From: Cymbomonas tetramitiformis
Lineage: Eukaryota; Chlorophyta; Pyramimonadophyceae; Pyramimonadales; Pyramimonadaceae
Reading direction: 5' to 3'
Assembly (NCBI GenBank): GCA_001247695.2
Contig: LGRX02028976.1
Location: 1 to 64,000 of the forward strand
DNA: 64,000 nucleotides
Shown piece by piece: positions 6,001-34,764 of this stretch (positions are counted from its first letter, which is position 1; each line of letters begins with the position of its first letter). Position numbers and translations under genes: made by a program. Below the pieces are notes generated by a model that was not told the DNA's origin, did no database searches, and saw only the letters and a program-made list of their open reading frames with translations.

Positions 6001-6015
6001 CTGGCCGGCGGCCAG
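5998..6015 (+). promoter_or_regulatory. Gag-Pol stop-codon read-through signal (candidate)
   Basis: UGA at 5998-6000 is followed at once by a perfect hairpin, CTGGCC-GGC-GGCCAG (6001-6015), six G/C-rich pairs. A second possible stem, CCCC...GGGG, lies at about 6014-6037. The pol frame is the gag frame and is open from base 6001, so reading UGA as sense gives Gag-Pol directly. UGA followed by C is the leakiest stop context known in general. Gammaretroviruses use the same logic with UAG and a pseudoknot. Read-through itself is inferred. Confidence 0.65.
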
Positions 6016-9000
6016 CCCCAGACCCTGCCCTTCGGGGAAGTGAGGTCTTGCCCTGATGTTCAGACCCTCTCCGCCCTGGAGAAGCGGTCAGAACCAGTGG
6101 AACCCCGTCGCGCCCGAGGACGCAGAGACCCTTGGGGCCAACGTCCCCATCCCAAGAGTGTGGCCTTCACCTCTGGGACCCGCTTGCGACGCACCTACCG
6201 CTCAGCTGGTGCCCCATCGCCGCCGAGGGATGACTTGTCCAGCCACCCTCTCGCAGGAAGCACCCCCTTCGATGAGCCGTCGCTACCTCTTGATGACGGT
6301 CCCGCTTATACACAAGCGAGGATCGAGGGGCGGAGGGGACGGCGACTTCCCCGGCACAGACCCCCCATTATGGGCAACAACCGCGGAGAGCCCCGCGACC
6401 TTCGCCCCCGACCGCGTGTTGTCCTACCGCTGCCCATCTATCAGTCCAACCTCGCAGACCCACGGAAAAGGCTAACTGCGTGGCACTGGAAGAGAGATCT
6501 GTACTCCCTTCCCCTCGAAGTCGCCATGCAGAAGGTCCGCAGAGCTCTGCGCAAGTCCCCAGAGGCTGCCAAGGACCTGGTGGATAAAATGTCGGAGCGC
6601 GTCCGCAGCCGCGTACACTCTGGGAGTCGATCGCCAAAGGAACGCGTGAACCGCGCCAACCAGCTGGCAGAGAGGATACGCATTGCCCGCGAACCTCAAG
6701 ATCGCAAGGAAGGCCATCAGCGCATAGCATTGTGGCACCTCCTTTCACACGACGGTCGCCAGCAAGTCCCCGAATCCTCTAACACCAGCTCCCACGACCT
6801 CTACGTGGCTTGGAGAGAGCTGTCGCCTGCCGAGCAGCAAAAGGCAATCACCACTTCGAGTCCAGACTCTTCCCCAGGTAGCAGGCTGTGGGAAAAGGAG
6901 GGCGCACGAAGAGCAGCAGCGAGGTCTTCGACATCCCTCTGCACCCTGGACACCGAAGTGGGCACGATACCTGGGACAGCGGGAGATGTGGGTTTACCTG
7001 GTGCCTGGTGCAGTCTGCACGCAGTACACCAGTACAAGATGAGGAAGCTGGGTCCCAGCCCCTTGGGAGCATCCCCTCCATCATCCTCACTGGCCGAGCC
7101 CACAGCAGAGACCACATCTTCGCACCATGATAACGCGCCAGCCACTCCGGGAGGAAACCCCGAAGGTTCATCTTACTGCTCAGAGGCGGAGGAGACCTCC
7201 GCACCCAGTTCGCTTTGCTTCACCCAGCAGATGACCACCGTCAAAACGCATGAAGCGGATGAAGCGCCACCCTATCTCGACAGCCACCCCATCGCTGAAG
7301 ACCCTGAGGTGATGGAAGAGGAGTCCTCGGTCAACTCGCTCTGCTTCACCCAGCAGATGGCAGCAGCTGGGACCCCTCAGACGAGAACTGACCACCAGGG
7401 CTCCCACCAGCTCGCCCATAACTCCCCTGCTGGCAGCCCTCAGCATGACGAGGATCCTCTCACCCATGGCAGTCTCACCGATAGTGTCGCTACCCACGTG
7501 AGCCCCTCAGTAAGCGGCACTACCCATGTTAGCCCTACCACCAGTGGCACTACACATGTGAGCCCTACTACCAGTGACACCACCCATGTGAGCCCTACCA
7601 CCAGCGACACCACTCATGTCAGCCCCACCTCGAGCGATTGCACCTCAGCGGGCACCCTGCTGACGGCGAGTGCAGACAACCTCGTCAGTCATCCGCCTGA
7701 AGATGTTGATTTGCTGGATGAGGAGTTCTACGCCGCGTGTAGGCAAACGCTGGAAGAATGCCGCGAGGCCTCGGACAACCTCCTCCCCAACCTCAAGTGC
7801 AAAAGCATACGCACAGATGGGGGAGTTCAGTGGAAGACCGACATCGAGGGTACCCTCGCAGCGGCACATGACGAAGAAGGACCGCTACTACTGGTATTCT
7901 ACGCAACCCTCGGAGGGCACACGGTCAAGGTGTTGATTGACTCGGGGGCCTCTGACAACTTCATCTCGGAGCAGAGCGCTAAGCGATGTGGCCTCACAAC
8001 ACGAGCCGGTTCCGAGATGCGAGTCACCCTGGCGGATGGATCTGTGAAGATCACTGGCGCCACCGCGTACGCCAAGTTTAACACGCACACCACCACGGGC
8101 ACCTATACGGAGAACGCCCTTGCCCTCCGGATCCTGCCACTGGGCATACAGGTGGATGTTATCCTCGGCGGAAGGTGGCTGCGCAGTCACTCTCCTGTCA
8201 CTCTGGGCTATGAAGGGAATGGCTCCGTCTCCTTCCTCAGGAAGTCCCGCGGTGGCAAGATTGGGGACCGCGTCACCATCACAGGCTGTTCTCCTGGGAA
8301 AGCATCTGGGGACAGGTCTCCGAAGGGCCCGGCCTGCGCGGGATTGGTGGATGAGGTGTTCCTGACCCCTGCCCAGCTGAAGAAGTACCTGGTGTATGCG
8401 GAGACGCAGAAGCTACGCGGCAATGACGACCCGGAGATACAGCCCGCCTGGCTCATGGTGGCCGAGAAGTCCCCCGACGATACTGCTTCTGCCTTTGCGG
8501 CCACGGCTATCGACTCTGAGAACGCCGAACCCGCTGCGGATACTGAAGATGCAGAAGTGAGCCCTGAGTGGACCCTCAAGTTTCAGGACTTCTGGGGTGA
8601 GGAGTACAAGAAGGAGATGACGCCTGCTCTACCGAACATCGATGGACTCAGACATGACCCCCAAGATGAAGCCAACATTAACCTGGACCCTGAGCTGAGC
8701 AAGAAGGGACCTCCCTGCCAGCGCATCTACAAGAAGTCCGCGGAGGAACTCCGCCAACTTCGAGAACGCGTGGAGACTCTGATGTCCAAGGGCTACATCC
8801 GACCCTCTTCCAGCCCTTATGCAGCTCCCTGTTTGATGGTCCCTAAACCCAGGAACCCCAAGGAGCTGCGACTGGTGATCGATTACCGGCTCCTCAACCG
8901 CCAGACAGTTAAGGACAAGTATCCTCTCCCAGACATCCAGATGATGTTCGACGAGATGCAGGGTGCGAAGTTCTTCTCTTCGTTCGACGCGGTGGATGGC

Positions 9001-12000
9001 TTCTGGCAAGTACCGATGGCACCAGGAGATGTCGAGAAGACCGCCTTCACCACCCAGATGGGGTCATATGAGTGGTTGGTCATGCCGCGGGGGCTGCAGA
9101 ATTCACCATCTCAGTACCAGCGACGGATGCAGCGGGCCTTGGGCCATCTCCCATTTGTCCGGATCTTCATCGATGATGTGGTCGTCTTCAGCAACCCCGC
9201 TGCAGAGCACTACGAGCACGTCAAACAACTGCTCCTGACATGCAGGGAGAAGGGCGTCTTCCTCAAGAGGTCCAAGTGCCAACTGTTGAAGAAATCCTTA
9301 CGGTTCCTTGGCCACTGTATCTCCGCAGATGGCTGCAGACCCCAACACGACAAGGTGGCTGCAGTGAGGGACTGGCCCGAGCTGGAGACGGTTACCCACG
9401 TCAGGCAGTTCTTGGGCCTAGCGGGGTATTACCGCAGGTTCATCCACTGCTTCTCCGAGATCGCTCAGCCCCTCACCCGGTTGACCAAGTCGGATGTACC
9501 CTGGGAGTGGGGTCCCATGCAGCAGTGGGCCTTCGAGGAGCTGAAGAAGGCCCTCACATCAGCGCCAGTGCTCGCCTTGCCCAACATTAAGGGTGCCGCA
9601 GACGGCACAGCGCCTTTCGTGGTGCAGACGGATGCTAGCGGCATCGCTCTTGGGGGAGTACTCATGCAAGACAATGGAGATGGTCTTGGGCTGCGCGTGA
9701 TAGCATACGAGAGCCGCCAGTTCTCAGCCGCCGAGCAGAATTACCACACCGGCGAGCGTGAGCTAGGTGCTCTACACCACTGTACCACCGTCACCTGGCG
9801 GCATTACCTCATCTTCACCAACTTCCGCATCCAGGGTGATCACCGCCCCCTTGAATGGCTGATGGAACCTGGCAGAGAGCTTAGCCGCAGACAGGCGCGC
9901 TGGTACATGGATCTGGTAGAGGTGGGAGTCCCGAGAATGGAGTATATCAAGGGAGCGCTGCTGCTGGTACCAGACGCCCTGTCCAGAAGACCCGACTTCA
10001 AAGACAAGGACGTTCGCGAGGGGTTGAAGGAGGCAGGAGTGATCGACCCCACCTCAGACCTGCCGAAAGACCCTCAGGCAACGCTGGAGTCTGAATGCTT
10101 CTCCAGCTCACCACCCGCAGCTCATCCCCACTGGGCTCAGACGGTTGACTGTTGGCTCTCAGCAGTGGAGACCCTCTCCGTGGCAGAACAGGCCATGGAC
10201 ATGGGGGAGACCATCGCTCTCGTTAATCCGAAGCTCTATAAGGGATTGAAGGAGGATCACCTCGACTTCGACATGCCTGACTGGCCTGAAGCTGATAGCG
10301 CGAAGCCGACAGAAGCTCCACACCAAACCCCTGACAGAGCTCCACCTCAGACAAGGATAACGAGGAGCATGTCACGTGCTGGAAGAGCCTCTACGACCCC
10401 AGCGCCTCCACGGTTGGCGTCACCGAAGACGCGAACGCCATCACGAGCTGACGCATCGGAGGCGCCCACTGAGAAGGTGCAGAGTTCACCACCCCCGCAG
10501 CAGGCGCCCCAGAAGTCAGCTCCATCCCCGGCCCTTCACCCGCAGAAACGGCAGACTCCCCCCGAAGACTCACAGAATTGGCGTGTCCGAGCAGAGTACT
10601 CCTCGAAGTACGCCGAGAAGTTTGGACCCTTCGATGTGGACGCCTGTTGTGACTTTGGCGGCCGCAACAGACAGGCGGATAGATTCTGGACAGACTGCCT
10701 TTCGGAGAAATGGAGGGGCCTTCGGGTTTGGTGTAACCCTCCATATAACTCCAAGCACATTACAGTGGAGGCGATTTTGAACAAGTATATCGCAGAATGG
10801 AAGGCAGACCCAGAAAACACCTCAGCAGTCTTCGTTCTACCAGATCATCAGTCCAAGCTCCCCGCGTGGCGCAAACTTTTCAGAAAGGCCAATATGCAGA
10901 TCGTGGAGGTCATCCCTACTCACGATGATAAGGGCGAGCCCAATCAGTTCTTCGAGAACCCAGATGGGAAGGCCTTCGACCTTCGTTGGCCTGTTCTGAT
11001 AGTACACGCCCCTTCCGCCAAACCACAGCCGGCACGCGTGAGGCACCCGCGAACAGCCCCCGCTGTGATAAGGACAGGTGAGGCAGCAGCCTTCAGAGAC
11101 GCAACCTCCCAGCAGTCGGACTCAAAGTTCCTGCGTGCGTTGAAAGCGGAGTACACCCGAGAGGGGACACTTCGTTCGCTGCGAGAGAAAGTGAAGGCGG
11201 CGCCACACCAATGCCTACAGGACTTCAGGCTGGTGGGTGAAGTGGTTTGGAGGACCGCAGCAGGGAGATATCAGCTGGTGCTGGGGGAGGACTCTCCACT
11301 TCGAGAAGTAGTGATTCGCCATGCTCATGAGTCATTGTCCTCGGGCCATACTGGGCGAGACAAGACTCTGGAGAGGGTGCTGCGACGCTTCTATTGGCGT
11401 GGTGCCGCGGAAGATGTGGGCACCTGGGTTGCAGCCTGCGCAGTGTGCCAATCAGTGAGGCCGCGGGGAACTTACCCGGATGGGTTGCTAAACCCTCACA
11501 GCATCCCGAACAGGCCATGGCAGGATGTCGCGGTGGACTTCGTCACCGGCTTGCCGGTATCAGAGAGGGGCAATGATGCTTTCGTGGCCTTCACCTGCAA
11601 GCTGACGAAGATGGTCCACGTTGTGCCGATGAACTTCGGCGACAGCTCCGCAGCTGTGGTGGCCAGAATCTACTTTGACTCAGTGTGGCGCTTACATGGC
11701 GCGCCTATGAAGATTGTCTCTGATCGTGACCCGCGGTTTCAAGATGCTTTCTGGCAGGAACTCATGAGACTGATGGGTGTAAAAGTGGCTCGTACCACGC
11801 CGTACAACCCTCGGTCTGACGGCCAGGCAGAACACAGCAACAGAGTTATTGAGGACATGCTCAGGTCCTTTGTTGACGCCAATGTGGAGGACTGGGATCT
11901 GTTCACCACTAACGTGGAGTTCGCGATCAATGACTCCAGGAGTGAATCTACTGGCTTCACGCCGTTTGAACTGGTGTTCGGGTTCTCGCCGCTGTCGCAG

Positions 12001-13575
12001 TTGGATCTTTTCCTGGAGGCCGCGCAGTCCACCGCCGGACGACGAACTGGGGGAGTAGGCACCGCACACGAAGTGGCTGTGAAATTTTCGTCGCAGCTGC
12101 GGGACGCCAGGCAGCGGTTGGAGCTGGCTCAACAGCGACAGCGCGAACAGTTTGATCGCAGACACGGGCAGCGGGAGTATGCTGTTGGAGATCTGGTCTG
12201 GATAGAGGCGAAACACCTTACGGAGAAGGTGATGGATCGCTCCATCTGTAGGAAACTGACCAAGCGCTGGCATGGACCAGTTCCTGTGACCGAACGCTTC
12301 TTCAGCGATGTACAGATGACCATGCCAGAGGCCGACAGAGGAGCTCCAGTAGCCTACCGCCTACGCCTCCCTCCTCACTGGCGGATTCACGACGTGTTCG
12401 CTCAACATCGCCTCAAACCGTACACCAGCGGTCAAGATGCTTTTGCCGCACGCGATCACCTAGCAGTACCTGAAGAGGTGGTAGTAGACGGTCAGAAGGA
12501 AGCACACGTTGAGCGTATCCTTGCACGTCGAGTGCGGTCTGTTCGAGGAAAGGAGGTGGAAGAGTGGAAGGTTCGCTGGACTGGCTACTCCAAAGCTCAC
12601 GACCAATGGAGGACGCGTGACAAACTTGAACGCGGAAGTCCACTTCAACAACTTCGTGAATTCGAGCAAGCGAGACTGCACATGGAAGCGCAAGTCCGCG
12701 ACGAAGCCACTCGGCGACGCGAGCAGCGTGGCCGCCACTCCGCTCAAGCCGGAATGACACTGGCCCACCTCATCACCAATCCCTGCGATGAACTGGACCA
12801 GCTCGAACAGATGGAAGATGATATCCCCCTGCCGTGGGAACGCCAGGAGCGCGTGGAAGATGGGTCGTTGGCACTGGTGACAGAGCTGCTGGCAATACAG
12901 GCCAAGACAACCCGCACGCCCAGGATTCTCGTACTTTTCAGCGGTACTGGCTCAGTAGAGAGGGAATTCCTAAATTGCTTCCCCTCCGCCTCAGTGGTGA
13001 CCCTCGACTCCGGGCATATCTGGCAACCCACTCATGTGTGTGACATCCTGCAATGGGACTACAAGCAATACCCGCCTGGATTCTTCGATGTTATTTGGGC
13101 AAGTCCCCCCTGCAGGCAGTACAGTCAAGCGCGCACCACTGGTGGACCCCCTGACCTTCCCCAGGCTGACAAAATCGTACGACGAGCATTGCAGATCATT
13201 GACTACCTAGAGCCAAAACATTGGTTCATGGAAAACCCCAGAGGTCGCTTCCCTAACGCGCTACGGCTTCGCCCTATGATGCGCCAGCTTCCCCCACCGC
13301 TGGTGTGTACCTACTGCATGTATGGTACGCAGTACATGAAACCCACCTGCATATGGACGAACTCAGCACCACCCTCGCCCCTGCTACGCTGTACTACTTC
13401 GACACCGTGTGCGTGCAGATGGGCAACCGGTGCTCACCCAGAGACTGCTCAGCTTGGACCTCACCCGCAGCAGACTGGAGCAGGTCAATCTGCGAGTGTA
13501 TACCCCGTACCAGCACTACTGCTACGACAACTTTTCCGACATTTACGCCTCCGCGACACTGAAGACCCGCTTTAG
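6001..13575 (+). CDS. pol: Element A Pol: protease - RT - RNase H - Dam-like MTase - integrase - chromodomain - C5 MTase
   Basis: About 2,525 codons; residue numbers here count from GTG 6040. An N-terminal region (1-600) has no recognised fold and carries five ten-residue THVSP repeats (7491-7632). Protease: IDSGA, Asp634. RT: FIDD at 1043-1046. RNase H: first Asp 1198 (QTDAS). Phage-Dam-like adenine methyltransferase: about 1513-1657, with FDVDACCD and catalytic NPPY at 1566-1569. Integrase: H2C2 zinc domain near 1765-1805, catalytic Asp1833, Asp1895, Glu1931 (35 residues between the last two). Chromodomain: about 2155-2215. C5 methyltransferase: about 2295-2420, motif I LFSGTGS, catalytic Cys2358 in SPPCRQYS, ENP at 2398-2400. 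After IWTN (about 2430) the tail turns low complexity, while another frame (13409-13618) reads a more protein-like end, so a late frameshift is possible. Confidence 0.92.
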   Translation: MAGGQPQTLPFGEVRSCPDVQTLSALEKRSEPVEPRRARGRRDPWGQRPHPKSVAFTSGTRLRRTYRSAGAPSPPRDDLSSHPLAGSTPFDEPSLPLDDGPAYTQARIEGRRGRRLPRHRPPIMGNNRGEPRDLRPRPRVVLPLPIYQSNLADPRKRLTAWHWKRDLYSLPLEVAMQKVRRALRKSPEAAKDLVDKMSERVRSRVHSGSRSPKERVNRANQLAERIRIAREPQDRKEGHQRIALWHLLSHDGRQQVPESSNTSSHDLYVAWRELSPAEQQKAITTSSPDSSPGSRLWEKEGARRAAARSSTSLCTLDTEVGTIPGTAGDVGLPGAWCSLHAVHQYKMRKLGPSPLGASPPSSSLAEPTAETTSSHHDNAPATPGGNPEGSSYCSEAEETSAPSSLCFTQQMTTVKTHEADEAPPYLDSHPIAEDPEVMEEESSVNSLCFTQQMAAAGTPQTRTDHQGSHQLAHNSPAGSPQHDEDPLTHGSLTDSVATHVSPSVSGTTHVSPTTSGTTHVSPTTSDTTHVSPTTSDTTHVSPTSSDCTSAGTLLTASADNLVSHPPEDVDLLDEEFYAACRQTLEECREASDNLLPNLKCKSIRTDGGVQWKTDIEGTLAAAHDEEGPLLLVFYATLGGHTVKVLIDSGASDNFISEQSAKRCGLTTRAGSEMRVTLADGSVKITGATAYAKFNTHTTTGTYTENALALRILPLGIQVDVILGGRWLRSHSPVTLGYEGNGSVSFLRKSRGGKIGDRVTITGCSPGKASGDRSPKGPACAGLVDEVFLTPAQLKKYLVYAETQKLRGNDDPEIQPAWLMVAEKSPDDTASAFAATAIDSENAEPAADTEDAEVSPEWTLKFQDFWGEEYKKEMTPALPNIDGLRHDPQDEANINLDPELSKKGPPCQRIYKKSAEELRQLRERVETLMSKGYIRPSSSPYAAPCLMVPKPRNPKELRLVIDYRLLNRQTVKDKYPLPDIQMMFDEMQGAKFFSSFDAVDGFWQVPMAPGDVEKTAFTTQMGSYEWLVMPRGLQNSPSQYQRRMQRALGHLPFVRIFIDDVVVFSNPAAEHYEHVKQLLLTCREKGVFLKRSKCQLLKKSLRFLGHCISADGCRPQHDKVAAVRDWPELETVTHVRQFLGLAGYYRRFIHCFSEIAQPLTRLTKSDVPWEWGPMQQWAFEELKKALTSAPVLALPNIKGAADGTAPFVVQTDASGIALGGVLMQDNGDGLGLRVIAYESRQFSAAEQNYHTGERELGALHHCTTVTWRHYLIFTNFRIQGDHRPLEWLMEPGRELSRRQARWYMDLVEVGVPRMEYIKGALLLVPDALSRRPDFKDKDVREGLKEAGVIDPTSDLPKDPQATLESECFSSSPPAAHPHWAQTVDCWLSAVETLSVAEQAMDMGETIALVNPKLYKGLKEDHLDFDMPDWPEADSAKPTEAPHQTPDRAPPQTRITRSMSRAGRASTTPAPPRLASPKTRTPSRADASEAPTEKVQSSPPPQQAPQKSAPSPALHPQKRQTPPEDSQNWRVRAEYSSKYAEKFGPFDVDACCDFGGRNRQADRFWTDCLSEKWRGLRVWCNPPYNSKHITVEAILNKYIAEWKADPENTSAVFVLPDHQSKLPAWRKLFRKANMQIVEVIPTHDDKGEPNQFFENPDGKAFDLRWPVLIVHAPSAKPQPARVRHPRTAPAVIRTGEAAAFRDATSQQSDSKFLRALKAEYTREGTLRSLREKVKAAPHQCLQDFRLVGEVVWRTAAGRYQLVLGEDSPLREVVIRHAHESLSSGHTGRDKTLERVLRRFYWRGAAEDVGTWVAACAVCQSVRPRGTYPDGLLNPHSIPNRPWQDVAVDFVTGLPVSERGNDAFVAFTCKLTKMVHVVPMNFGDSSAAVVARIYFDSVWRLHGAPMKIVSDRDPRFQDAFWQELMRLMGVKVARTTPYNPRSDGQAEHSNRVIEDMLRSFVDANVEDWDLFTTNVEFAINDSRSESTGFTPFELVFGFSPLSQLDLFLEAAQSTAGRRTGGVGTAHEVAVKFSSQLRDARQRLELAQQRQREQFDRRHGQREYAVGDLVWIEAKHLTEKVMDRSICRKLTKRWHGPVPVTERFFSDVQMTMPEADRGAPVAYRLRLPPHWRIHDVFAQHRLKPYTSGQDAFAARDHLAVPEEVVVDGQKEAHVERILARRVRSVRGKEVEEWKVRWTGYSKAHDQWRTRDKLERGSPLQQLREFEQARLHMEAQVRDEATRRREQRGRHSAQAGMTLAHLITNPCDELDQLEQMEDDIPLPWERQERVEDGSLALVTELLAIQAKTTRTPRILVLFSGTGSVEREFLNCFPSASVVTLDSGHIWQPTHVCDILQWDYKQYPPGFFDVIWASPPCRQYSQARTTGGPPDLPQADKIVRRALQIIDYLEPKHWFMENPRGRFPNALRLRPMMRQLPPPLVCTYCMYGTQYMKPTCIWTNSAPPSPLLRCTTSTPCACRWATGAHPETAQLGPHPQQTGAGQSASVYPVPALLLRQLFRHLRLRDTEDPL

Positions 13576-13763: not shown

Positions 13764-14456
13764 TGTGCCCGGAGGCACAGCGTGAACCGATATGTCTATG
13801 CGTCCGTATGTGTGTCATCGGGGGTAATCTGGGATTGGCACGATGACAGTGAGATTGGGCTTGAAACCACGATGAGAATGAATACCAGATGTCCGGGGTA
13901 TGACAGTATGACACTATGACACTATGACAGTATGACAGTATGACACTATAGTAGTATGACAGTACTGTGGGGGGTGTCATCGTGGAACTCAGTCAGACCC
14001 TAGAAGAATGGTCAGATTCGCATCGGGGTTGAAAAGACAATGAAATCGAATATCAGATATTAAGGTTATGACAGTATGACAGTATGACGCTATGACAGTA
14101 TGACAGTATGACAGTACAGTAGTATGACAGTACTGTGGGGCAGTCATCGTGTCAGTCTGTCGGCATAACATCTGAATCGAGAATGACGAATCGGAATTAG
14201 AAATGAGATCGGATCGGGAACTGAACGTTGAGCCGAAGTGTGACATCGGCTCTCGAGTGGTTGACCCTGCAACCTGAGTGACGAGTGAATAAGTAGAGCA
14301 CTTGAGAAGTGTTTAGCCTTCAGAACTCGGAACCGAATTATCGTTTGTACCTCAATCTGGCCCTGATCCAGTATATTATAAAAATCCGAATTGTGTACCT
14401 TTGCACGTTCAATCAAAAACATATCTCCGAGCATCTGTCGTCGTGCCCCTGGCACA
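13764..14456 (+). repeat. Element A 3' LTR
   Basis: 693 bases, TGTGCC...GGCACA, nearly identical to 627-1347 but 28 bases shorter: 4 bases near 14005 and one 24-base block of the TATGACAG array. Followed by the right target duplication CAAAG (14457-14461). Confidence 0.93.
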
Positions 14457-20043: not shown

Positions 20044-21771
20044 AAACAATAATGTCCTGCGCGGAGCGGCTTTTTATTTCAGTGTTAATCCGGAAGTGAA
20101 GGCCCTTTGGCGAGAAGTTAGCAGCAGTTGAAAGAGCGGATTCGGAAGTCAGGCGACTCCAGGGGCACCCACGGTGCACTGGCGGAACCTTTTTCTTCCC
20201 TGAGCTTGGTGGTACTTGCACTGGAAGAGCCTCCAGCAACAGCGGCGACGGATCAGCTTTGAATTCACCAGACATGAGCGGTCTCCTTCTGTACAGTGAT
20301 ATGCTCAACACCTTTGTCTTCAGCGAATCCAGGGGCACCCCTGGTGCACTGGCCTAGCTGCTGACAGGTGTCCTTCAGTTTTAAGCTAATCAGCACTGCA
20401 TGAGCTTGGGCGGCGGCAGCGACAAAGTCAATCAGCAGTTAATGTACACCTGGATGAGCAGCTCTCAGTGGTTCTTTCAGCTGACCACCTTGCTTGAAGT
20501 GAATCCAGGGGCACCCCTGGTGCACTGGCTTAACTGAAAGGCAGGTGTGTGTCACCTGGGAGCTAATCAGCAGCGGCATCTGCCCTGTCTTACCGGCTAA
20601 GAGTGGATCAACAGCTGATGTGCACCTTGATGAACTATCTTCCAGTGGGCTCTCCAGCTGGCCACCTTGTCTGAAGTGAATCCAGGGACACCCCTGGTGT
20701 ACTGGCTTAGCTGAAAGGCAGGTGTGCTTGGCCTGTGAGCTAATTAGCGGCGACATCTGCTTTTATTTACCAGCGAAGAAGTGGATCAGCAGTGAATCAC
20801 TGCTCTATGTCTGGAACTCCAACTTACGGTTTCTTTGGCAGCTCCACTTTGTCTGACGGTTAATCCAGGGACACCCCTGGTGTACTGGCCTAAGCCTGAA
20901 GCAGAGGAAGAGCTTGCTAGAGGACTGGCAGCTGCATCAACTCTGAAGGCGACAACTGAGTGGTTTATTCCCTGGTTTGACACAGTGACCTGGTGGATTT
21001 AGAGCTAATTACGTTTCCAGCCTGGAGTGCTGCTCACTACTGGAGTGACCTTCTGCTGCCTTATCACAATGTGTTGGAGAATTCTTCTATCCTTTCTACA
21101 GTGTTGGTCAACCGGTGAGGCCCTCATATCACGGGCCACCTTCTGAATCAGCAGTAGTGCTGCGAATCCAGAGTGCTCAGCATACTGGCTTAGCTTCCAA
21201 CTCTGTCAGCGACCTGGTACTTGTTTGTTGGACTGGACTGGGGAGTGAGCTTATATGCCAGCCATGGCTTTCTTGATTAGCAGTGGTGTTGTGAATCCAG
21301 GGGTGCTCAGCACACTGGCCTAGCTCACACCGCTGCATATCAGTGCTATTTCTTGGTGTTGAGGAGTTGCCCTCACTGTCATTGTCCTCTTTATGAACTC
21401 TGGCCCAGCTTTAATTTTCCTCGCACAAATACTCTGCATCTGCTGCTGATTCAGAGCGCTGAAGCGCAGTGCTGGACCTTTAGGCATTCGCTGCCCACAC
21501 GCGTTTCGTTCTTTCACTTGTTCAGCAAGGCGAATCCAGGGGCACTCAGTGCACTGGCCTGAGCCAGTCTGAGTCAAGCCTCCAGTCTACTGGGGAACGA
21601 GCTTTGCGCTGAGAGGGGGGACTCGCCCTTGGTCCCGTTGACTGAGCATCAACACAGCACTTCACCACGGAGGGAGAGTCAGAGCCAAGCGCTGCCTCTG
21701 TCCATTCCAGAGAACGTGAGGCACGACGGCTGGCACGAGGACGGACCAGTCAGGACCTTGACACGGAGTAT
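20044..21771 (+). ncRNA. Element C leader: array of conserved hairpins in ~180-base repeats
   Basis: 1.7-kb leader made of degenerate units of roughly 130-300 bases. Each holds a 21-24-base hairpin with outer stem CCAG/CTGG, preceded by (G)AATC in most copies. Hairpins at 20159-20182, 20329-20352, 20505-20528, 20682-20705, 20865-20888, 21168-21188, 21297-21318 and 21536-21557. Inner stems vary in a paired way: GCACC/GGTGC (first three), ACACC/GGTGT (fourth and fifth), TGC/GCA (sixth), GTGC/GCAC (seventh), GCAC/GTGC (eighth; last three with loop TCA). Compensatory changes argue for selection on RNA structure, for packaging, dimerisation or translation. It is not known whether it acts as a separate RNA. 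Confidence 0.7.
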
Positions 21772-27100: not shown

Positions 27101-27583
27101 ATATGCATGCAGTGGGGTTACGCAGAATCGGCCGCGCCATGGTTGCAGACGGCCCTGCGCGTCTTGGAGGCGCGCCTTCTCCCGCCACAGCCGCCCAACC
27201 GTGAGGCTCGTGTGGCCGTGAGGCCGGAGCACGTGGATACGAGCTGGGCAAGGAATGTGGACGAGGTTCGCGACCCCCCTGCGCGTCGTCAATGGCCGCC
27301 TTCCCCCGGGACGTTCGAGCATCAGCCGATCGTAGGTGGTGCTGCGCGTTCGCCTGCTCCTTCCGTTGACCGCCATGGGGCTGCTACCCATGTCGTCCCC
27401 GCGCCGAGAACGTCCAGGATGCCGGCCAGCCACGCCTCACAGCGTCCTCCTTCTCCAGCTGGCTCGAATTGGAGTGAGGCTACGCAAGCGTTTCAGCACT
27501 ACACAGACGAGCAGCGTGAGGCGCAGCGACGGCAAGCGCATTTTCAACAGGGCTCCCCGGGCACAGCGGGCGGGCAGCCCTGA
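23843..27583 (+). CDS. pro: Element C ORF2: aspartic protease plus long unassigned region
   Basis: Open frame in +1 relative to ORF1, overlapping it by about 270 bases. The first ~60 codons mirror ORF1 in another frame; protein-like sequence starts near 24010, so entry is probably by a frame change about 23990-24110. Residue numbers count from 23843. Protease: LMDTGANCN (Asp163) with a flap-like region and LLIGTGPL near 240. The remaining ~950 residues have no fold I recognise. They include a Pro/Ser/Ala-rich stretch (about 745-900, PSQAA repeats at 26108-26170) and a globular-looking part (about 910-1115). It ends TGA at 27581-27583, overlapping the ATG of ORF3 by one base (TGATG). Confidence 0.78.
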   Translation: MISRRTSRILWHWRSSWARIRMTQPNSPLRSMSMSWKTRTPQRRKEQKGSRRSGHRATEEVPLDEMPSGVVDSVAAQCAAAAYVDDLGVVDFSDHGHVRAGTIKTSAYDALRAKMAQHLTDEQVLLMAQVQPICKLQNATLYEGLALVSSGGELMLYRAILMDTGANCNIISISVVRRLGLTIYEATTGAKVTRCDNSPTKFTHYCYVDVILAAGTPHMTLHRLYAFVTFEAENSWDLLIGTGPLKNSLMIDIKLGSGVAVSHAPTILGMNAQVVLPLVDMTPPKRPDLPRRVDPVVCLQSEIFGQGLECDWLRHTPLSTSEERFAASGIQCEHIDDHDESPVTSQPPSPRPLADLPRHRVATQAEIQEQCRRQTCSLEGGRRSSLPSLTPAVQAASEHMLEQFYKEPDPWKGGHAKWVTDWTRSPSRVNAGDHPSLDTPLDYHWADQRLYLDRHHVARLCRILQNPAQDMPSRPSREHVCVEFARCLEQKWVTMHQLMTPNWLHVDQKLKHDDQKNCWVLDGDYMTYVPSSASKQDVARPRESRSQLDYNPIQRLQSTLQSLLKYPSGEVTGTLMWDLRKRVFCVQPSAATQQLDLLHCTLSHVRVSNREEVLDELQLPHWYESTGVWTYQLLRYLCPVDIEALSDGILRQYARHGGERPPLELVFSDSSTKYYPVGDGLGGPGRVFSENAAAQEYVRLGEMRKMLKSVDTRQQGHEALYADAKRRPPPPNDMAHLRLTKRAPARPPVPAAVAGPSQAAAVPSQAVAGPSQAAAGPSRARSASDSPPRSSRVRAFQALKHGPTPSPASSDGEPVDDSRALSSQFVCAAAARPSQGESPPASPAVSNDGSWADSIRVPRDARPRSSGGAPSTPPSPPRARQLSQSPTRAPPSPAGSDWDAVQMATSSVSSVGRFLTVAEVSNLRERRNLTVFMVKFAVAHANRCRDQRIVYELGVCNQERGLRLRDYPGITSAVAKKHNKTITCGQRGWRLPLGGQTTSANLLEAIMSAYADLSHRGSGHTRGVGYARNVEFSLCKWVELGSAHVLRCMAHPNATPVHYIFMDDQRCLSWRTEFTNDYLVQDDRKFICMQWGYAESAAPWLQTALRVLEARLLPPQPPNREARVAVRPEHVDTSWARNVDEVRDPPARRQWPPSPGTFEHQPIVGGAARSPAPSVDRHGAATHVVPAPRTSRMPASHASQRPPSPAGSNWSEATQAFQHYTDEQREAQRRQAHFQQGSPGTAGGQP

Positions 27584-27585: not shown

Positions 27586-30500
27586 CACAACCGGCGCTGT
27601 GGCCGTGGGCTGCCTGCACGGGCAGTCCACTTGCGGCCGGAGGTCCTGCGAGCGTGTATCTCGCTTGCGGGCAGTGCAGTGATTTGGTGGTGGTTGGTAC
27701 GAGGTACCGTGCCCATGGTCGCCGTCTGGGCGATGTGGGAAGCAATATCGTGGCACTTGGCATGGTGCCCTTTTCGCATTTGGTGGGGGCGCTGTGTGGC
27801 CTCACTTTTGAGCTGGCTGCCAATGTGGTGGTCGGCTGCTCGACGTTATCCCCGTCGTGCGTACTATAACGTTTGGGTCTTATGGGCCCTCGCCTGCATT
27901 TGGTACGTTGGGTTGCTTGTCGTGCGCACCACGGGCATCTATGCTGGCGTGCACCGTGTTCATGCCGAAGGATGGATGGTCGTGCCCCTACGGGCTGTGG
28001 TCATTTCCTTGACGTGTTGGTCGCAGTGTGCAGCCGCCCTCCTGATCGCAGTCCTTGCTTGGCTTTGGGTTTGTGCCAGCGTCTTCGCGGAGGATGTGGC
28101 GTGCCATGCCCCTCATGTCCCAAGCGACCCTTTGGACACGCATCACATTCGACGTGGCCGTGGGTGGGCTGTTCCGTCCCTACGTTGGTCTCAAGTTTTC
28201 TTGTTGGGCCGCGTGCGTCTGCCCGCTTTGCCGGCCAGGTTGGACAAACCTCGCTTTGCGGCGCGCTGGGCGCAGCTTCGGCGCAATCTTCGACTTCATT
28301 GCATCGCGCAGGCCACCTACGTGGCGCTGGTCCTTGCGGTCGTGGTCTTCACCGCCGCTGGTGGGAGTACTCGCTTGGCGCACGGGGGGTGGAGAGTATT
28401 GGCGTGCTTCTTCGCTTCGAACTCGCCAGCAGCCGCAGTGCGTTTCAACAGAATTTTACGATTTTTTCTGCTTTTGTGCGGAATTTTGTGGGTCGCTGGC
28501 AAGCTGGCTGAGAGCGTGCCCATGTGCGATGCCATGTCGCCCACGCGCAGTGCTTGGGGTAAATCCCCCTGCACTTCATGGGAGGCCCAGCAGTCCTCGA
28601 GGCAATGGGAGCCGGGCTGGGAAGCCAACATCGCGGAGCAGGATGAGGTCTTGCCGTACACCGTGCTGGACGAGCTTCAACCTTTGGGTGACACGACAGT
28701 GACCAAGGACGAGGCAGCGTGGCTCGACACTGAGCTCAATGCCACGTTTGGAGGACATCCTGACTTCAAGGAGGAACACTGGGAGGAAATGCGGAATGTT
28801 CTTCGCAGGTGCAAGACCACCTTTGCCAACAGCCCTCACGATCTGAAAGGCTACAAGGGCAAAGCGAAGCACAACACGTTCTCCATCCCTTTCGTAGACG
28901 AATCCAAGGCCGCCTACCAGAGACCTAGGAAGTACAGTCCGGGCGAGCAGGAGATCATCGATATCCATTGCAAGGAACTTTTGGAGTATGGTTTCATAGA
29001 GCCAGCAGCCAAGCATTGCAGGCATGCGAGCAACGTGGTCGTAGCTGGCAAGAAGGATCACGAGACTGGCCTGTGGACTCAGACGAGGTTCTGCGTGGAC
29101 CTCAGGGGTGTCAATCGGCACTCCCTCAAAGACAACACGCTGCCGCACCGACCAGAGGAGCTCTACCAGAAGGTGGCCAAAGCCAAGTTCAAGACCACTC
29201 TGGATGCCACCAAAGCTTTCCACCAGATTCCCATGGCTACAGAAGAGGACAGGAGCAAGACGGCGTTTTGGTGGAAGAATCAGCTGTACCAATACACCTC
29301 GATGCCTTTTGGTGCAGCTGGAGCTACTTCTGCGTTCGTAAGAATCATGGACTACGAGTTACGGCACTTGCAGCATTGCACGGTGGCGTACGTCGATGAC
29401 GTAGTGGTCTATACGGATTCCACGCCTGAGCAGCATTTGAAGGACGTTGAGGATGTACTTCGCACCTTGGGGGATGCTGGCATCCGTTTGCATGCAGGCA
29501 AGAGCACTTTTGGTGCAGCCACGGTGGACTTTCTGGGCTATCGTATTGGCCACAACTCCATTGGCGCGCAAGAAGCCAAATGCAAGGCCATACAAGAGCT
29601 TCCAAGCCCTCAGGACAAGACTGGGCTCCGCTCGATCTTGGGTATGATGAACTACTACAAGGGCCTGGTGGGTGAGCCAGGGGGGCCAAACTACTCTGAG
29701 ATGGCCCGCCCTCTCAACGACTTGCTCAAGAAGGAGGTCACTGACATCAAGGCAGCCTGGGGGAAGCAGCAAGATCAAGCACTCCAAGAACTTAAGGATG
29801 CCCTCTGTTCTGGGAGGTGCCTGAGGCCCATCGATTACGACAGACCTCTCATATTGTACACTGACTGGAGCACCTATGGCATTGGCGCAGTGCTGGGCCA
29901 GAAGGACGATGACGGGAAGGAGTACATTTGTATGGCAATCAGCCGATCTCTGAGTAAAACGGAGAGACAGTACGCCAGCTTCAAAGGTGAGATGCTCGCA
30001 GTGGTATGGGCAGTGCGCACGTTGAGGCAGTACTTGCATGGAGTCCACTTCACCTTGGTGACCGACCACTCACCGCTCACCACCCTGATGGAGAAGGCCG
30101 ATCTCCAAGGGCAACATCTACGCTGGGCAATCAGCTTGCAGGAGTTCGACTTCACGGTGCAGTACCGTCCAGGAGCTAAGAACAGCAACGCTGACGTGCC
30201 GTCTCGCTACCCACTGCCGTCCACGACAGATGAGACTGGAGCAAGGCATGAGAGGGAGAAGGTGACTGCGTTTCACGCAGGCGTGGGGGAAGTTCACACG
30301 AAGGACTTCTGTGACCACTTGTGCCTTATGTTGGCTGGGGATGCTTCCCCAGGGGAAGAGGCCACGCCAGAGGTGCAGGTTGCCAACTACTGCAGGATGG
30401 CTGCCATGGAGCAGCTGGGTACAGGACCAGTGCATCGTCTGTTCGATTTGCACTACCACGAGGAATTAGAATGCAATCATGGGGACATGTTCGACACCGA

Positions 30501-33500
30501 CTTGCCCGAGCTGGTGACCGACTCTGGGAGGCTAGCCAGAGCAGCTTGGAAGGCGCTGAGCCTGGTTAGGCCAACGCGAGGCACGCATGGCGAGGGAAGC
30601 CCTGCTGTGTACAGCAATGAGTACTTTGAAGGTGAGCGCATCCTGAAGCCCGAGAAGGTCGACACCAGGGTGCTGAGCAGCCGATTCTTCTCGCAAGCTC
30701 GGCAGGAAGGCGTGGTGTGCTACGAACCATGTGGAGGCCTATGTGCTGGGCTGGAAATGTTGCTCCGCAGTGGGATGAAGGTGGATCGCTACCTGTATCA
30801 GGACATATCCCCGAGCAGTCAGACGGTTGCCAGAGCCAGGTGTGCGGCATTGCTGAGACGATACCCTGACCTCATCTCGCCCCATGCAATAGAGCTTGGG
30901 GCTTTACCCCAAGACCTGCGCGAGACCACCAGCGCCGACTTCATACGAGCAGGAGCTCTTCAAGGACGCCAGTGGGTCATGGTATGTGGGTTCCCATGTC
31001 AGGATCTCTCCCCTGCTGGAACACTCACAGGCCTGGATGGCAGGCACAGCAAATTATTTTATGAAGTGGTCAGGCTTCTGTCCACACTCCAGCAGCTGCA
31101 GCGGCAGAGGCCTCCAGGTTATATCCTGGAAAATGTTTCTCCGTTGTCGCACAGACCTGGAACCAAGATCAGGGACGAGGTGTTCCCGTACATTGCCAGC
31201 GTCATTGGTAGACCAGTGTCCTTTGATGCAGCACAAGCAGGCGCCTACGCACATCGGTTGCGGGCGTATTGGAGCAACTTGTTCCAGAGCCACCAGTTTC
31301 GCTCCGTCATGAGCAAGGTGGTGAGACCAGAAGGACGAATTGTATCGTCAATCATATGCAAGGGCTGGCATCCCAGGCCAGTGATAAGGACAGACCGCGC
31401 GCCTCACTACGTGGTGAACGTGGTGGGAGAACCATTGAGGGCATTACCCACCATCATGGCGACGCAAGGGTCAAGAGCGTTCAGAAGAGCGAGGATGGGC
31501 ACCGTGGTGCGCAACCAGGACGGCGAAGACGCCGAGGAAGAATCTCGAGAAGTTAACCTCGAAGAGAAGACGCGAGCCATGGGCTACAGCGCAAGTGAGC
31601 TACGCATGGCCGACGGCCTAAGCGACGTAGAATTGGCGAGCATTCTGGGCCTGGCCATGGATCGCAGAGCAATGGAACTGCTGATGGCAGTCGCAGAAGC
31701 AAGCAGGAAGGGGCTTCCTCACAGCAAGGAATCCCCAGAGGCGGAGAATTCCCCAGGACAGCCCATCGCTGTAGACAACAACTGGGCAGACCACGAGAGG
31801 TCGGACCTTCAGCAGAGGGAAGCTTTGCTGGCGGAATGGGTTGAGAATTCGAACGCATACACCCAGCAGGTGGCGAAGACTATGACCCATCGCGACTGGG
31901 AGGAGAAGCTGCGGATAATGTGCTCGCAAGGGCAGAAAGGCGCAGAAGGAATTGGAGCCCAGCGACAGAAGGCTGGAACCAAGAAGAAGAAGAAGAACGA
32001 GTGGCAGCTCTACACCATGGCGCAGTATCGTCAGAGGCATGAGAACCACTTCGTGAAGGAGGGCGCGATCCCAGCAGCGCACGTGGATGTGCCTGCCTGG
32101 AGTCCGCCTACCAGAGAGTCAGAGATGAGGCTCCCCAGGTTGACGTGTACCACCAGGTTCGAGGACCTGATGGCCAGCGTGGCCGAGCAGCAGGTAGATC
32201 GTGACAAGCATCGAGATGTACACGATGATGCATGGTGCCTCAGATGGTTGAAGTCCAATGGTAGAGTGAGGTTGCCCGAAGAGGAAGTTCGTCGAGTAAG
32301 GAGGCGAGCAGCACGACATCGATGGGACGAGGCCACGGACGAGATCTACATGGTCACTATGTCGGGCAAGGAGGTGAGAATACCTAAGCCTGCTGACCGT
32401 CTCGCGTTGGTTAAGGAATACCACTCCAGAACGGGACATTGGGGCATAAGGCGGACGCAGCATCTTTTGTGGCAGCGCCATTGGTGGGCCGACTTGAAGA
32501 AAGACGTGGAGGCTGTGGTCACTCAGTGTGAGACCTGTCAGCGTGTGAAGACTCATTATGCGAGAGAGGAGGCATGTTTGTCCCCCCTTGAGATCGTGTC
32601 GTTCATGTATCGCTGGTCGCTGGATCTGGCATGGCCCTCGAGGAGAGAGACCAAGTCTGGCAACAACCGAGTGCTCATCATGACCGAGCACTACACCAGG
32701 TTCATAGTCTGCGTGCCCATTCCCGACAAGGAGGCGAGCACCATCGCAGCGGCATTTCGCAGTCATGTCCTGGCTGTGTTTGGTGCGCCAGCAGAATGCT
32801 TGGTGGATGGAGGTAAGGAGTTTGAAGGCGAGTTCAAGCAGTTGTGCAGAGATTGCCTGATTGACCGGCGAGTCACCTCGCCAGACTCACCAGAAGGCAA
32901 TGGGCTGACCGAGCGAGTGGTACGCACTATGAAGTTCTGCTTTAAGAAGCTTGCCTTGGAGAAGGGTCTCGATTATGAGTGGGATGAGCAGCTTTGGCCA
33001 CTGGTGCTGAGCTATAATGCAGCACGCCAGGAGTCCACGGGGGTGGCGCCGTTCACCATGTTGTTCGCCCAAGAGGCAGTAGTGCCGCCTGATTTGAAAC
33101 GGGCACCCAGCATAGATTTTGCTGTGGAGGTCGAAGATGAGAAGGATGCCAGAGTCAAGGACCTCCACCAGAGAGCACAGGTGGTGAGGCGACTGATGGT
33201 ACACGCTGGTTGCAGCCTGGAGGTCGCGCAGCATCGTGACACATTACATTACGAAAGGAGAAGGGGTGGGGGCTACGAGCCTAGTCCACACCAGTTCAAG
33301 GTGGGTGATTTCGTCTATATCAGGCAGAAGCCCCGCAGCGGCATGGAAGTCGCGACCAAATCCGCCATCCTGAAGCTGGTCAAGATACAGCGAGATGGTG
33401 TGGTGGTGCTTGAGGACGCCACCAAGTTAAGAGAGAAGAGCACCGTGCAGAGCATCGCGCCATGTCACCTACAGGTGAAGGATCAGTATGACTGCAGTGC

Positions 33501-34764
33501 AGCCGTTCCCAGTAAGCACCTAGCATGTGAAGTTTGCAGGAAGACCGATGGGGAGGCAGAGATGCTGTTGTGTGACACGTGCAACAGGGGGTATCACTTG
33601 TGGTGTTTGACCCCAGCACTGGATGGAGTACCAGAAGGTGAGTGGCTATGCCCCATGTGCTCAGGCACGGGGAGGCAAGCCGCCAATGCCGAGGTGCAGA
33701 CCCAGAAAGACGAGAGCTCTGGTGCCCTAGAGGACAAATTGGGCATGAAGGAGCAGCAATTGAATGAGAAGCTGTCGGCGGAGATGCGCCTGTTGCCAGC
33801 AGACGTGGGTCCTCGTCGGGTGGTGAAGGGAGACAAGTTCCAGCCTTGGCATGCCATTTCATCGAGAGAGATGCTGTTGAAAGAGGAGGACATGTTCTTG
33901 GGCATGCCTGATCAGATTGACTGGGGAAGGCAGGACAAGCTCTCTGAGGCTGTGCAGATCTTCATGCCAGGGCATTGGAATGAGGGGCATCGCACGGTGC
34001 TGAGCAAGAAATATCGGGAACAGAAGGCCATGGCAAGACATCTGAGGGATGCACCTCTTATGCCTGCGCTGGCTGAAGAAGAAGTTGAAAGACGAGGAGA
34101 GCTGAGGCACATGACCAAGGCTCAGGTGAGAGAAGCCAGCGCGCTGCAGTGGGGGCTCGAACTGGTTATCACAGTGCCCTCTGAGGTGAGGCGTTTGGCG
34201 ACAGAGGTGGACTGGAAGTCCGTCAATGGCGTGTGGGACCCGTGGGCAGGCACTGGGGTCATCAGTGAGGTGATGGTAGAGCAATGGCCGCAGTTGAGAT
34301 TCATGAACAATGACTGGAACTCTCAGTTGGGTTGGCCTGAGGCGCATGATGCACTTCAGCCGGGTAATTATCGCATATGGAAGGAGAAGTATGGTGTCTG
34401 TGACGCAGTGGTGACTTCGCCTTGGTTCGCAGCGCTGGATATCGCGTTCCCGTTGGCAGTAATGGCCAGTCGTGTGGTGGCATGTGTCCATGTTCCATCT
34501 TACTATTTGACAGACATGACCGAGAGCAGGGCTGCGTACTTCAGACGATTGAGTCAGACAGGACGCTTGCATGTGATTGGGCATCTGGAACATGGACCTA
34601 TTGGCCGCAGGTGTATGTGGGTCTTGGTGTTCAAGAACCCGTTGATCAGAGCCAGAATGTTACAAGGCGGAGAAGGTGAGGGCATTGGTATGTTCACTTT
34701 CAGTTTGGGCAAGTTCATGGCAGATGGTGATACGACCCAGTATGCTGAGCAAGCCCACATTTGA
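27583..34764 (+). CDS. pol: Element C ORF3: membrane region - RT - RNase H - C5 MTase - integrase - PHD - second MTase
   Basis: 2393 residues. Residues 20-310 hold about six hydrophobic, Trp-rich segments (about 24-52, 64-84, 96-115, 131-168, 239-260, 290-308). RT: about 430-700, YVDD at 603-606. RNase H: Asp761 (YTDWSTYG). C5 methyltransferase: about 1025-1340, with CYEPCGGLCAG (motif I), catalytic Cys1139 in GFPCQDLSP, ENV at 1183-1185 and a C-terminal target region with a MGYSASELRMADGLSD motif. It looks more like DNMT3/DRM-type enzymes than A's. Integrase: H2C2 zinc domain near 1610-1655, catalytic Asp1681, Asp1742, Glu1777. PHD finger: 1982-2026 (Cys4-His-Cys3). Second class I methyltransferase: about 2205-2355, DPWAGTG at 2219 and TSPWF at 2278-2282, in the place of the D/N-PP-Y/W motif of amino-methyltransferases. 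All catalytic residues are present. Confidence 0.9.
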   Translation: MHNRRCGRGLPARAVHLRPEVLRACISLAGSAVIWWWLVRGTVPMVAVWAMWEAISWHLAWCPFRIWWGRCVASLLSWLPMWWSAARRYPRRAYYNVWVLWALACIWYVGLLVVRTTGIYAGVHRVHAEGWMVVPLRAVVISLTCWSQCAAALLIAVLAWLWVCASVFAEDVACHAPHVPSDPLDTHHIRRGRGWAVPSLRWSQVFLLGRVRLPALPARLDKPRFAARWAQLRRNLRLHCIAQATYVALVLAVVVFTAAGGSTRLAHGGWRVLACFFASNSPAAAVRFNRILRFFLLLCGILWVAGKLAESVPMCDAMSPTRSAWGKSPCTSWEAQQSSRQWEPGWEANIAEQDEVLPYTVLDELQPLGDTTVTKDEAAWLDTELNATFGGHPDFKEEHWEEMRNVLRRCKTTFANSPHDLKGYKGKAKHNTFSIPFVDESKAAYQRPRKYSPGEQEIIDIHCKELLEYGFIEPAAKHCRHASNVVVAGKKDHETGLWTQTRFCVDLRGVNRHSLKDNTLPHRPEELYQKVAKAKFKTTLDATKAFHQIPMATEEDRSKTAFWWKNQLYQYTSMPFGAAGATSAFVRIMDYELRHLQHCTVAYVDDVVVYTDSTPEQHLKDVEDVLRTLGDAGIRLHAGKSTFGAATVDFLGYRIGHNSIGAQEAKCKAIQELPSPQDKTGLRSILGMMNYYKGLVGEPGGPNYSEMARPLNDLLKKEVTDIKAAWGKQQDQALQELKDALCSGRCLRPIDYDRPLILYTDWSTYGIGAVLGQKDDDGKEYICMAISRSLSKTERQYASFKGEMLAVVWAVRTLRQYLHGVHFTLVTDHSPLTTLMEKADLQGQHLRWAISLQEFDFTVQYRPGAKNSNADVPSRYPLPSTTDETGARHEREKVTAFHAGVGEVHTKDFCDHLCLMLAGDASPGEEATPEVQVANYCRMAAMEQLGTGPVHRLFDLHYHEELECNHGDMFDTDLPELVTDSGRLARAAWKALSLVRPTRGTHGEGSPAVYSNEYFEGERILKPEKVDTRVLSSRFFSQARQEGVVCYEPCGGLCAGLEMLLRSGMKVDRYLYQDISPSSQTVARARCAALLRRYPDLISPHAIELGALPQDLRETTSADFIRAGALQGRQWVMVCGFPCQDLSPAGTLTGLDGRHSKLFYEVVRLLSTLQQLQRQRPPGYILENVSPLSHRPGTKIRDEVFPYIASVIGRPVSFDAAQAGAYAHRLRAYWSNLFQSHQFRSVMSKVVRPEGRIVSSIICKGWHPRPVIRTDRAPHYVVNVVGEPLRALPTIMATQGSRAFRRARMGTVVRNQDGEDAEEESREVNLEEKTRAMGYSASELRMADGLSDVELASILGLAMDRRAMELLMAVAEASRKGLPHSKESPEAENSPGQPIAVDNNWADHERSDLQQREALLAEWVENSNAYTQQVAKTMTHRDWEEKLRIMCSQGQKGAEGIGAQRQKAGTKKKKKNEWQLYTMAQYRQRHENHFVKEGAIPAAHVDVPAWSPPTRESEMRLPRLTCTTRFEDLMASVAEQQVDRDKHRDVHDDAWCLRWLKSNGRVRLPEEEVRRVRRRAARHRWDEATDEIYMVTMSGKEVRIPKPADRLALVKEYHSRTGHWGIRRTQHLLWQRHWWADLKKDVEAVVTQCETCQRVKTHYAREEACLSPLEIVSFMYRWSLDLAWPSRRETKSGNNRVLIMTEHYTRFIVCVPIPDKEASTIAAAFRSHVLAVFGAPAECLVDGGKEFEGEFKQLCRDCLIDRRVTSPDSPEGNGLTERVVRTMKFCFKKLALEKGLDYEWDEQLWPLVLSYNAARQESTGVAPFTMLFAQEAVVPPDLKRAPSIDFAVEVEDEKDARVKDLHQRAQVVRRLMVHAGCSLEVAQHRDTLHYERRRGGGYEPSPHQFKVGDFVYIRQKPRSGMEVATKSAILKLVKIQRDGVVVLEDATKLREKSTVQSIAPCHLQVKDQYDCSAAVPSKHLACEVCRKTDGEAEMLLCDTCNRGYHLWCLTPALDGVPEGEWLCPMCSGTGRQAANAEVQTQKDESSGALEDKLGMKEQQLNEKLSAEMRLLPADVGPRRVVKGDKFQPWHAISSREMLLKEEDMFLGMPDQIDWGRQDKLSEAVQIFMPGHWNEGHRTVLSKKYREQKAMARHLRDAPLMPALAEEEVERRGELRHMTKAQVREASALQWGLELVITVPSEVRRLATEVDWKSVNGVWDPWAGTGVISEVMVEQWPQLRFMNNDWNSQLGWPEAHDALQPGNYRIWKEKYGVCDAVVTSPWFAALDIAFPLAVMASRVVACVHVPSYYLTDMTESRAAYFRRLSQTGRLHVIGHLEHGPIGRRCMWVLVFKNPLIRARMLQGGEGEGIGMFTFSLGKFMADGDTTQYAEQAHI

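Follow-up and report, generated by a model that had tools for sequence, protein, structure and literature searches.

Two Gypsy retrotransposon families of the green alga Cymbomonas tetramitiformis encode a C5 cytosine methyltransferase, a second methyltransferase or methyltransferase-like domain and a chromatin reader within one pol polyprotein

DNA methyltransferases (DNMTs) have been found in Gypsy, DIRS and LINE elements (PMC5890265), a 2025 survey added DNMT3 in Copia and DIRS elements (PMC12344493), and Dam-like domains are known from DIRS elements (PMC3266345; PMC5890265). Furthermore, DAM- and DCM-encoding Ty3/Gypsy and DIRS elements, including those of green algae, have been reported in a paper whose available text does not describe the combined architecture considered here (PMC6338049). 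Why a transposon should carry the very enzymes by which it is normally silenced is still a puzzle. Here we analyze two neighbouring elements, A and C, on the first 64,000 nucleotides of contig LGRX02028976.1 of Cymbomonas tetramitiformis (the whole stretch is referred to as the window). The order of the pol domains is reverse transcriptase (RT)-RNaseH-Dam-integrase (IN)-chromodomain-C5 in element A and RT-RNaseH-C5(Dnmt3-like)-integrase-PHD-MT2 in element C, MT2 being a second methyltransferase-like domain. A first-pass annotation of the window held this architecture to be undescribed, and in the titles, abstract openings and consulted passages of the open-licence papers searched, both writers plus a reader in a single polyprotein did not appear; DNMT-bearing Gypsy and DIRS elements and Dam-bearing DIRS elements were already known.

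Element C resembles KnitGypsy-Dnmt3 of Klebsormidium nitens in having a Dnmt3-related C5 domain within a Gypsy pol under purifying selection (PMC5890265) and in the DIRS-like repeats around the Gypsy domains (A1-coding-B1-A2-B2; Fig. 4 legend, PMC5890265). It differs in that the main text of PMC5890265 leaves a PHD unmentioned and, as far as available, reports no second methyltransferase. None of the 93 matches of the element C profile (8000 candidates scored) bore a Klebsormidium name. SymbioDIRS-Dnmt3 and SymbioLINE-Dnmt of Symbiodinium likewise are retrotransposons with a C5 under purifying selection, and the SymbioDIRS enzyme was active in yeast (PMC5890265), but they have tyrosine-recombinase or LINE backbones and, in the available text, one methyltransferase and no reader (PMC5890265). 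Retrotransposon-borne cytosine methyltransferases in Klebsormidium and Symbiodinium, as mentioned in the annotation, are on record (PMC5890265). DIRS1-like elements share with element A a Dam-like domain downstream of RNase H in pol, but possess a tyrosine recombinase (PMC3266345; PMC5890265). Element A instead relies on an rve integrase, is bounded by long terminal repeats (LTRs) and a target duplication, and encodes a chromodomain as well as a C5 domain. Element A and its neighbour, element B, are of the chromovirus type (Ty3/Gypsy with a C-terminal chromodomain), to which A adds Dam and C5. The algal transposon Sola1-1_Ec32 of Ectocarpus (ParB plus N4/N6 methylase) also encodes an amino methylase, for which marking of the transposon's own DNA has been proposed, but it is a DNA transposon with a single methylase (PMC12477816). 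For C. tetramitiformis itself, Burns et al. (2015) noted in passing three scaffolds of more than 10,000x coverage with sequences homologous to a chromodomain peptide, to an RNase H domain and to a cytosine methyltransferase (PMC5741210). Elements A and C are described neither in the available text of that paper nor in that of PMC10675990, the main text of which contains no word beginning with 'methyl'.

Both elements of the annotation proved real, but their boundaries had to be set anew. Element A is a Ty3/Gypsy chromovirus at 627-14456 with LTRs, a 5-bp target duplication and gag in a separate open reading frame (ORF); element C, at 19518-35755, combines Gypsy domains with split direct repeats (A1-coding-B1-A2-B2) and is no ordinary LTR element. 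RT, RNase H and H2C2 domains scored above the Pfam cut-off in both, and the rve integrase cores were significant (E=7.2e-5 in A, 5.7e-7 in C), yet under the cut-off. In five ORFs scanned with Pfam no phage integrase or tyrosine recombinase was matched, both pol ORFs having the rve/H2C2 integrase. In both window elements the stretch from RNase H to integrase contains one writer, and the second follows the integrase and reader. As annotated, the readers differ and both exceed their cut-offs: a chromodomain in A (PF00385, E=8.9e-7), located C-terminally beside the integrase as in chromoviruses, and a PHD in C (PF00628, E=2e-11).

Translation confirmed every motif position given earlier: NPPY at 10735-10746, SPPC at 13102-13113 (Cys codon 13111), GFPCQ from 30988 (Cys codon 30997) and TSPWF at 34414. 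Of the four segments proposed to be methyltransferases, three were recovered in the profile searches. The excised Dam segment, with its NPP[YF] motif, matched PF05869 at E=3.3e-9 (37.1 bits, cut-off 28.1), and PF00145 matched the excised C5 segments of A (E=6.8e-6) and C (E=4.4e-10), both above the curated cut-off; within the whole pol, the A domain reached 21.8 against a cut-off of 22. Both C5 domains contain the catalytic Cys motif and the ENV/ENP motif; the C5 fold was recognised in a model for A and from sequence for C. Judged from these Pfam matches, and for the C5 of A also from the fold, the predictions of Dam and both C5 domains are secure. As the annotation indicated, the C5 domains differ in motif style. 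That of A resembles phage enzymes and that of C DNMT3 (DNMT3A match, E=1.4e-6). The Dam segment gave an unrelated best match in a PDB profile search (E 0.37) and none at 1e-5 among cultured phages.

The fourth segment, MT2, had no match of its own at E<=1 in Pfam, PHROG or NCBIfam, and two unrelated ones in the PDB profile search (E 0.04 and 1.5); 39 viral-contig sequences matched its pattern, none of them a relative. Four of the eight members of the MT2 family alignment matched PF02086 (D12 N6-adenine methylase) over the motif I part only, the best at E=2e-4 (21.6 bits, cut-off 22) and the other three at 0.019-0.17. Motif IV of amino-group DNA methyltransferases reads [DNS]PP[YFW]; MT2 deviates from it, SPWF having W instead of P at the third position. 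The amino-type assignment of MT2 is therefore probable only: its DPWAGTG and TSPWF motifs and the weak D12-class matches of its relatives speak for it, and the atypical motif IV and a poor structural model do not. That model, built from six sequences with a mean predicted local distance difference test score (pLDDT) of 43, was set aside; its best Foldseek rows were mostly class-I S-adenosylmethionine-dependent methyltransferases, including the N6-adenine rRNA enzyme RlmJ, at E 5e-3 or worse, and are not used as support.

To place the two families in their own genome, 851.7 Mb on 25,745 contigs were searched. The best 45 of 20,685 first-look candidates for the Dam-to-C5 part of A, window copy included, were all 99-100% identical; 43 lacked stops and 13 had the full frame of 2524 amino acids (aa). 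The same held for the best 34 of 13,933 first-look candidates for the C5-to-MT2 part of C (34/34 at 99-100%, window copy included), with 33 lacking stops and 19 having a frame of 2413-2414 aa. This identity points to a recent multiplication of both families. The catalytic residues, loss of which in all copies was the outcome considered fatal by the annotation, are in fact retained: SPPC in 13/13 A copies, the Dam CxPP pattern in 12/13 (L262 lacks it), and DPWAGTG plus TSPWF in all 17 C loci in which MT2 was found, split between frames in L243, L249 and L252. In 3 of the 20 C copies MT2 was found nowhere in the stretch.

The methyltransferase domains of both elements are under purifying selection, as judged from the ratio of nonsynonymous to synonymous substitutions (dN/dS). 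Copies were chosen by long open frames or from the best matches (12 of 27 scored places), which favours intact ones, and pairs, which are not independent, were dropped when dS was outside 0.05-1.5. Among the C copies (20 fetched plus the window) the median dN/dS was 0.062 for C5 (19 copies, 133/171 pairs used), 0.027 for MT2 (13; 61/78), 0.056 for integrase (16; 93/120) and 0.030 for RT (17; 107/136). The A copies (12 fetched plus the window) gave 0.047 for Dam (23/78), 0.058 for C5 (12/78) and 0.028 for integrase (23/78). When only the 12 pairs shared by all three A domains were counted, the values were 0.048, 0.058 and 0.010, respectively, and in these pairs the A methylases are thus less constrained than the integrase. 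Both elements carry a C5 domain inside their own coding region under purifying selection (0.058 in A, 0.062 in C), like the DNMT-bearing retrotransposons described before. Protein identity of A to nine relatives was 0.51 and 0.62 in the methylase domains, 0.33-0.44 in the neighbouring linkers and 0.73 in RT and integrase. Identity in MT2 came to 0.77 among Cymbomonas sequences and to 0.40 for four distant relatives; the linkers beside it reached 0.48 and 0.17.

Protein searches brought in 77 sequences related to the C part, 193 related to the A part (120 of which entered the tallies) and 93 from a C5-first profile; the tallies cover 283 proteins, five of them window translations. Dam and C5 occurred together in 40 of these, all with integrase, 34 with a chromodomain and 4 with a PHD. 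A Dnmt3-like C5 with PHD and MT2 occurred in 18, including Haematococcus lacustris P0022 and environmental sequences. From 202 proteins, 130 had RT-RNaseH and IN, and all 54 with a methyltransferase plus every third of the 76 controls were kept for an RT+RNaseH+IN tree (FastTree, midpoint root, 80 taxa). The lineage of C was monophyletic (11 taxa, support 1.0) and separate from a Dam/C5 lineage of 40 taxa (support 1.0), of which 33 had both enzymes, 5 Dam only, 1 C5 only and 1 neither by the search used there. Considering this separation, the independent assembly proposed in the annotation is supported: a similar toolkit appears to have been built by two lineages, with the chemistries in exchanged positions. 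The profile comparisons agree, as Dam and MT2 did not align (hhalign probability 5%) and the C5 families of A and C scored 0.5%, with a weak alignment in register over the shared C5 motifs. Within 30 taxa, Dam distances tracked those of RT and IN (r 0.87 and 0.86) and C5 distances did so less (0.52 and 0.52). Beyond the Dam/C5 lineage, further Gypsy elements of the tree have just one of the two enzymes (P0134, P0135, P0181, P0191), so that more than one capture is probable. Such lone domains were seen as C5 only in P0134 and as Dam near the N-terminus in P0135, P0181, P0187 and P0191. Seven full-length PF00145 frames (383-401 aa, 102.7-111.3 bits) were also found on the own-genome contigs C25294, C20845, C8, C6, C2041, C154 and C16883, and may represent a multi-copy, stand-alone C5 methylase gene derived from a virus or a transposon.

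The arrangement suggests two functional positions, one writer standing beside the cDNA-making enzymes and one beside the chromatin reader. We infer that the polyprotein would be packaged together with the RNA and cut by the element's protease, and that the two enzymes would be active on new double-stranded cDNA, possibly also on chromatin at the landing place, before and at integration. The copy would then reach the nucleus already bearing the marks of accepted or protected DNA, to its benefit. That two unrelated Gypsy lineages have a histone-reading domain in pol and keep there, under selection, a C5 and a second methyltransferase (a probable one in C), with both enzymes marking new cDNA and possibly the landing chromatin, has in our judgement a little better than an even chance of being correct. 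Several observations weigh against it. CpG observed/expected ratios were 0.76 for A and 0.74 for C (0.65 for C pol alone), not clearly reduced relative to the methyltransferase-free B (0.71 and 0.63) and little under the flank (0.82), and CpG and GATC counts in the window gave no distinct sign of self-methylation. In yeast, neither KnitGypsy nor SymbioLINE enzymes showed activity, a result called inconclusive by the authors (PMC5890265). The MT2 motifs decay across the wider C clade (motif I in 13/19 rows, SP[WF]F in 10/16), also in Haematococcus lacustris P0022, and with their loss in several distant relatives MT2 is dispensable in some elements. An extended version is more tentative and, in our estimate, clearly the less probable: a convergent cassette of two writers and a reader, with a 'cDNA slot' and a 'chromatin slot' that may each be filled by a 5-methylcytosine (5mC) or an amino methylase, would create a combined 5mC/N6-methyladenine (6mA), or N4-methylcytosine, code setting element DNA apart from host and virus DNA.

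Alternatively, the reader-linked writer (C5 in A, MT2 in C) might mark chromatin at or around the insertion site and so recreate the preferred chromatin, as a retrotransposon-built chromomethylase for which marking of cDNA is incidental. In agreement with this, one methyltransferase is C-terminal of the integrase-attached reader in both window elements, and, of the host-gene matches, PHDs of the CHD and BAZ types come closest to the PHD of C. Several CHD- and BAZ-type PHDs read unmodified H3K4, by the same logic as the DNMT3 ADD domain. However, C5 is placed first, at the N-terminus, in hit P0124, and the PHD precedes the integrase in P0112, P0114, P0115 and P0118; adjacency of reader and writer is thus not obligatory, and we consider this alternative rather unlikely. 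The latter four Dam/C5 proteins have the PHD between Dam and integrase and lack a chromodomain match, a sign that one lineage can exchange one type of reader for another.

A role against DNA viruses is less probable still. Methylated cDNA might be spared by viral nucleases, or incoming viral DNA hindered, to the profit of the host. An integrated giant virus and numerous Polinton-like viruses are known from this host (PMC10675990), transposon methylases have been proposed earlier to act against viruses (PMC6338049), and the C5 of A has phage-contig relatives (the PHROGs cover viruses of prokaryotes only). Yet no connection of these elements with restriction enzymes or with infection was seen, in an analysis that did not extend to viral nucleases. 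As to a possible viral origin of the enzymes, in trees without a cellular outgroup 35 A C5 copies separated from 63 viral-contig enzymes (support 0.855) and the test for Dam was weak (52 against 46, support 0.409); the comparison for the C5 of C had one viral row only.

That the domains merely hitch-hike, conserved for folding or for RNA/DNA binding and devoid of catalysis, would fit the decay of the MT2 motifs among relatives, but is very improbable: almost every genomic copy read has retained the catalytic motifs, the dN/dS values lie far under 1 (in C at a level similar to RT and integrase, in A above the integrase on the common pairs), and the methylase domains contrast with the divergent linkers around them. 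A chance placement of host genes beside ordinary retrotransposons, or an assembly error, for which no support was found, can be dismissed: the ORFs are continuous and recur on different contigs in dozens of copies of 99-100% identity, and Haematococcus and environmental samples yielded relatives as well.

The question of transposon-borne silencing enzymes becomes directly testable here, as a single alga has two young families, unrelated to each other and each present in dozens of nearly identical copies. The species (assembly of 914.3 Mb) has been sequenced by nanopore (PMC10675990), so that 5mC and 6mA on young copies could be read from existing or new signals, and the domains are small enough for single assays. 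Being kept by selection, the arrangement may contribute to an explanation of why certain transposable elements write epigenetic marks. The features of both elements are listed in Table 1.

Table 1. Features of elements A and C in the window
Feature	Position	Strand	Remarks
5-bp target site duplication CAAAG, left copy	622..626	.	right copy 14457-14461
A 5' LTR (TG...CA)	627..1347	+	688/721 alignment columns identical to 13764-14456
A gag ORF	2491..6000	+	first in-frame ATG 2575; stop TGA 5998-6000; pol in same frame
A pol ORF, 2524 aa	6001..13575	+	
A protease	7903..8172	+	PF13650
A reverse transcriptase, FIDD	8839..9315	+	PF00078
A RNase H	9607..9918	+	PF17917
A Dam-type N6-adenine methyltransferase, NPPY 10735-10746	10552..10950	+	PF05869
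A integrase	11293..11811	+	H2C2 PF17921; rve core PF00665 below cut-off
A chromodomain	12505..12666	+	PF00385
A C5 cytosine methyltransferase, catalytic SPPC 13102-13113	12913..13545	+	PF00145; phrog_757
A 3' LTR	13764..14456	+	alignment to 5' LTR
C split direct repeat A1	19518..20043	+	
C gag-like ORF	21646..24114	+	without Pfam match
C second ORF, protease-like DTGA motif	23828..27583	+	PF13650 weak, E=0.024
C pol ORF, 2414 aa	27520..34764	+	
C reverse transcriptase, YVDD	29119..29547	+	PF00078
C RNase H	29833..30147	+	PF17917
C Dnmt3-like C5 cytosine methyltransferase, GFPCQ, Cys codon 30997-30999	30694..31704	+	PF00145
C integrase	32389..32892	+	H2C2 PF17921; rve core PF00665 below cut-off
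C PHD finger	33526..33660	+	PF00628
C second methyltransferase-like domain MT2	34165..34689	+	motif I DPWAGTG 34237-34257; motif IV TSPWF 34414-34428; weakly D12/N6A-like
C split direct repeat B1	34801..35015	+	
C split direct repeat A2	35016..35541	+	92.4% to A1
C split direct repeat B2	35541..35755	+	99.5% to B1

Both LTRs of element A start with TG and terminate in CA; the pair differs in 33 alignment columns, 28 of which are gaps. A zinc knuckle in gag was below the Pfam cut-off, and a Tf2-type SH3 was also matched in pol. At the gag/pol junction (5998-6006) the two frames are one and the same, with TGA followed by CTG as the sole separator, which suggests a candidate site of stop-codon readthrough.

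A segment of element C pol is 100% identical to CYMTET_14855 of C. tetramitiformis. All 42 differences between the repeats A1 and A2 fall within alignment columns 75-355, both ends being identical, and B1 and B2 differ at one position. The A1/A2 mosaic may have arisen by replication through the repeats or by recombination between copies. No target duplication could be fixed for element C.

Element B, which surrounds A, is a Gypsy element with an integrase, and at least three copies of it are present in the window (1-626, 14457-19517 and 52400-64000). Element A is inserted within the pol of one of these, and the empty site is seen in a second copy; the terminal chromodomain was matched by Pfam in a second copy of B (one copy). 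The left flank of C matches another B copy and the right flank is weakly similar to the same B region (68% over 92 bp), an indication that the terminal region of B was the insertion site of C. In the flank at 46518-46944 imperfect repeats occur with a spacing of about 85-105 bp (and 258 bp).

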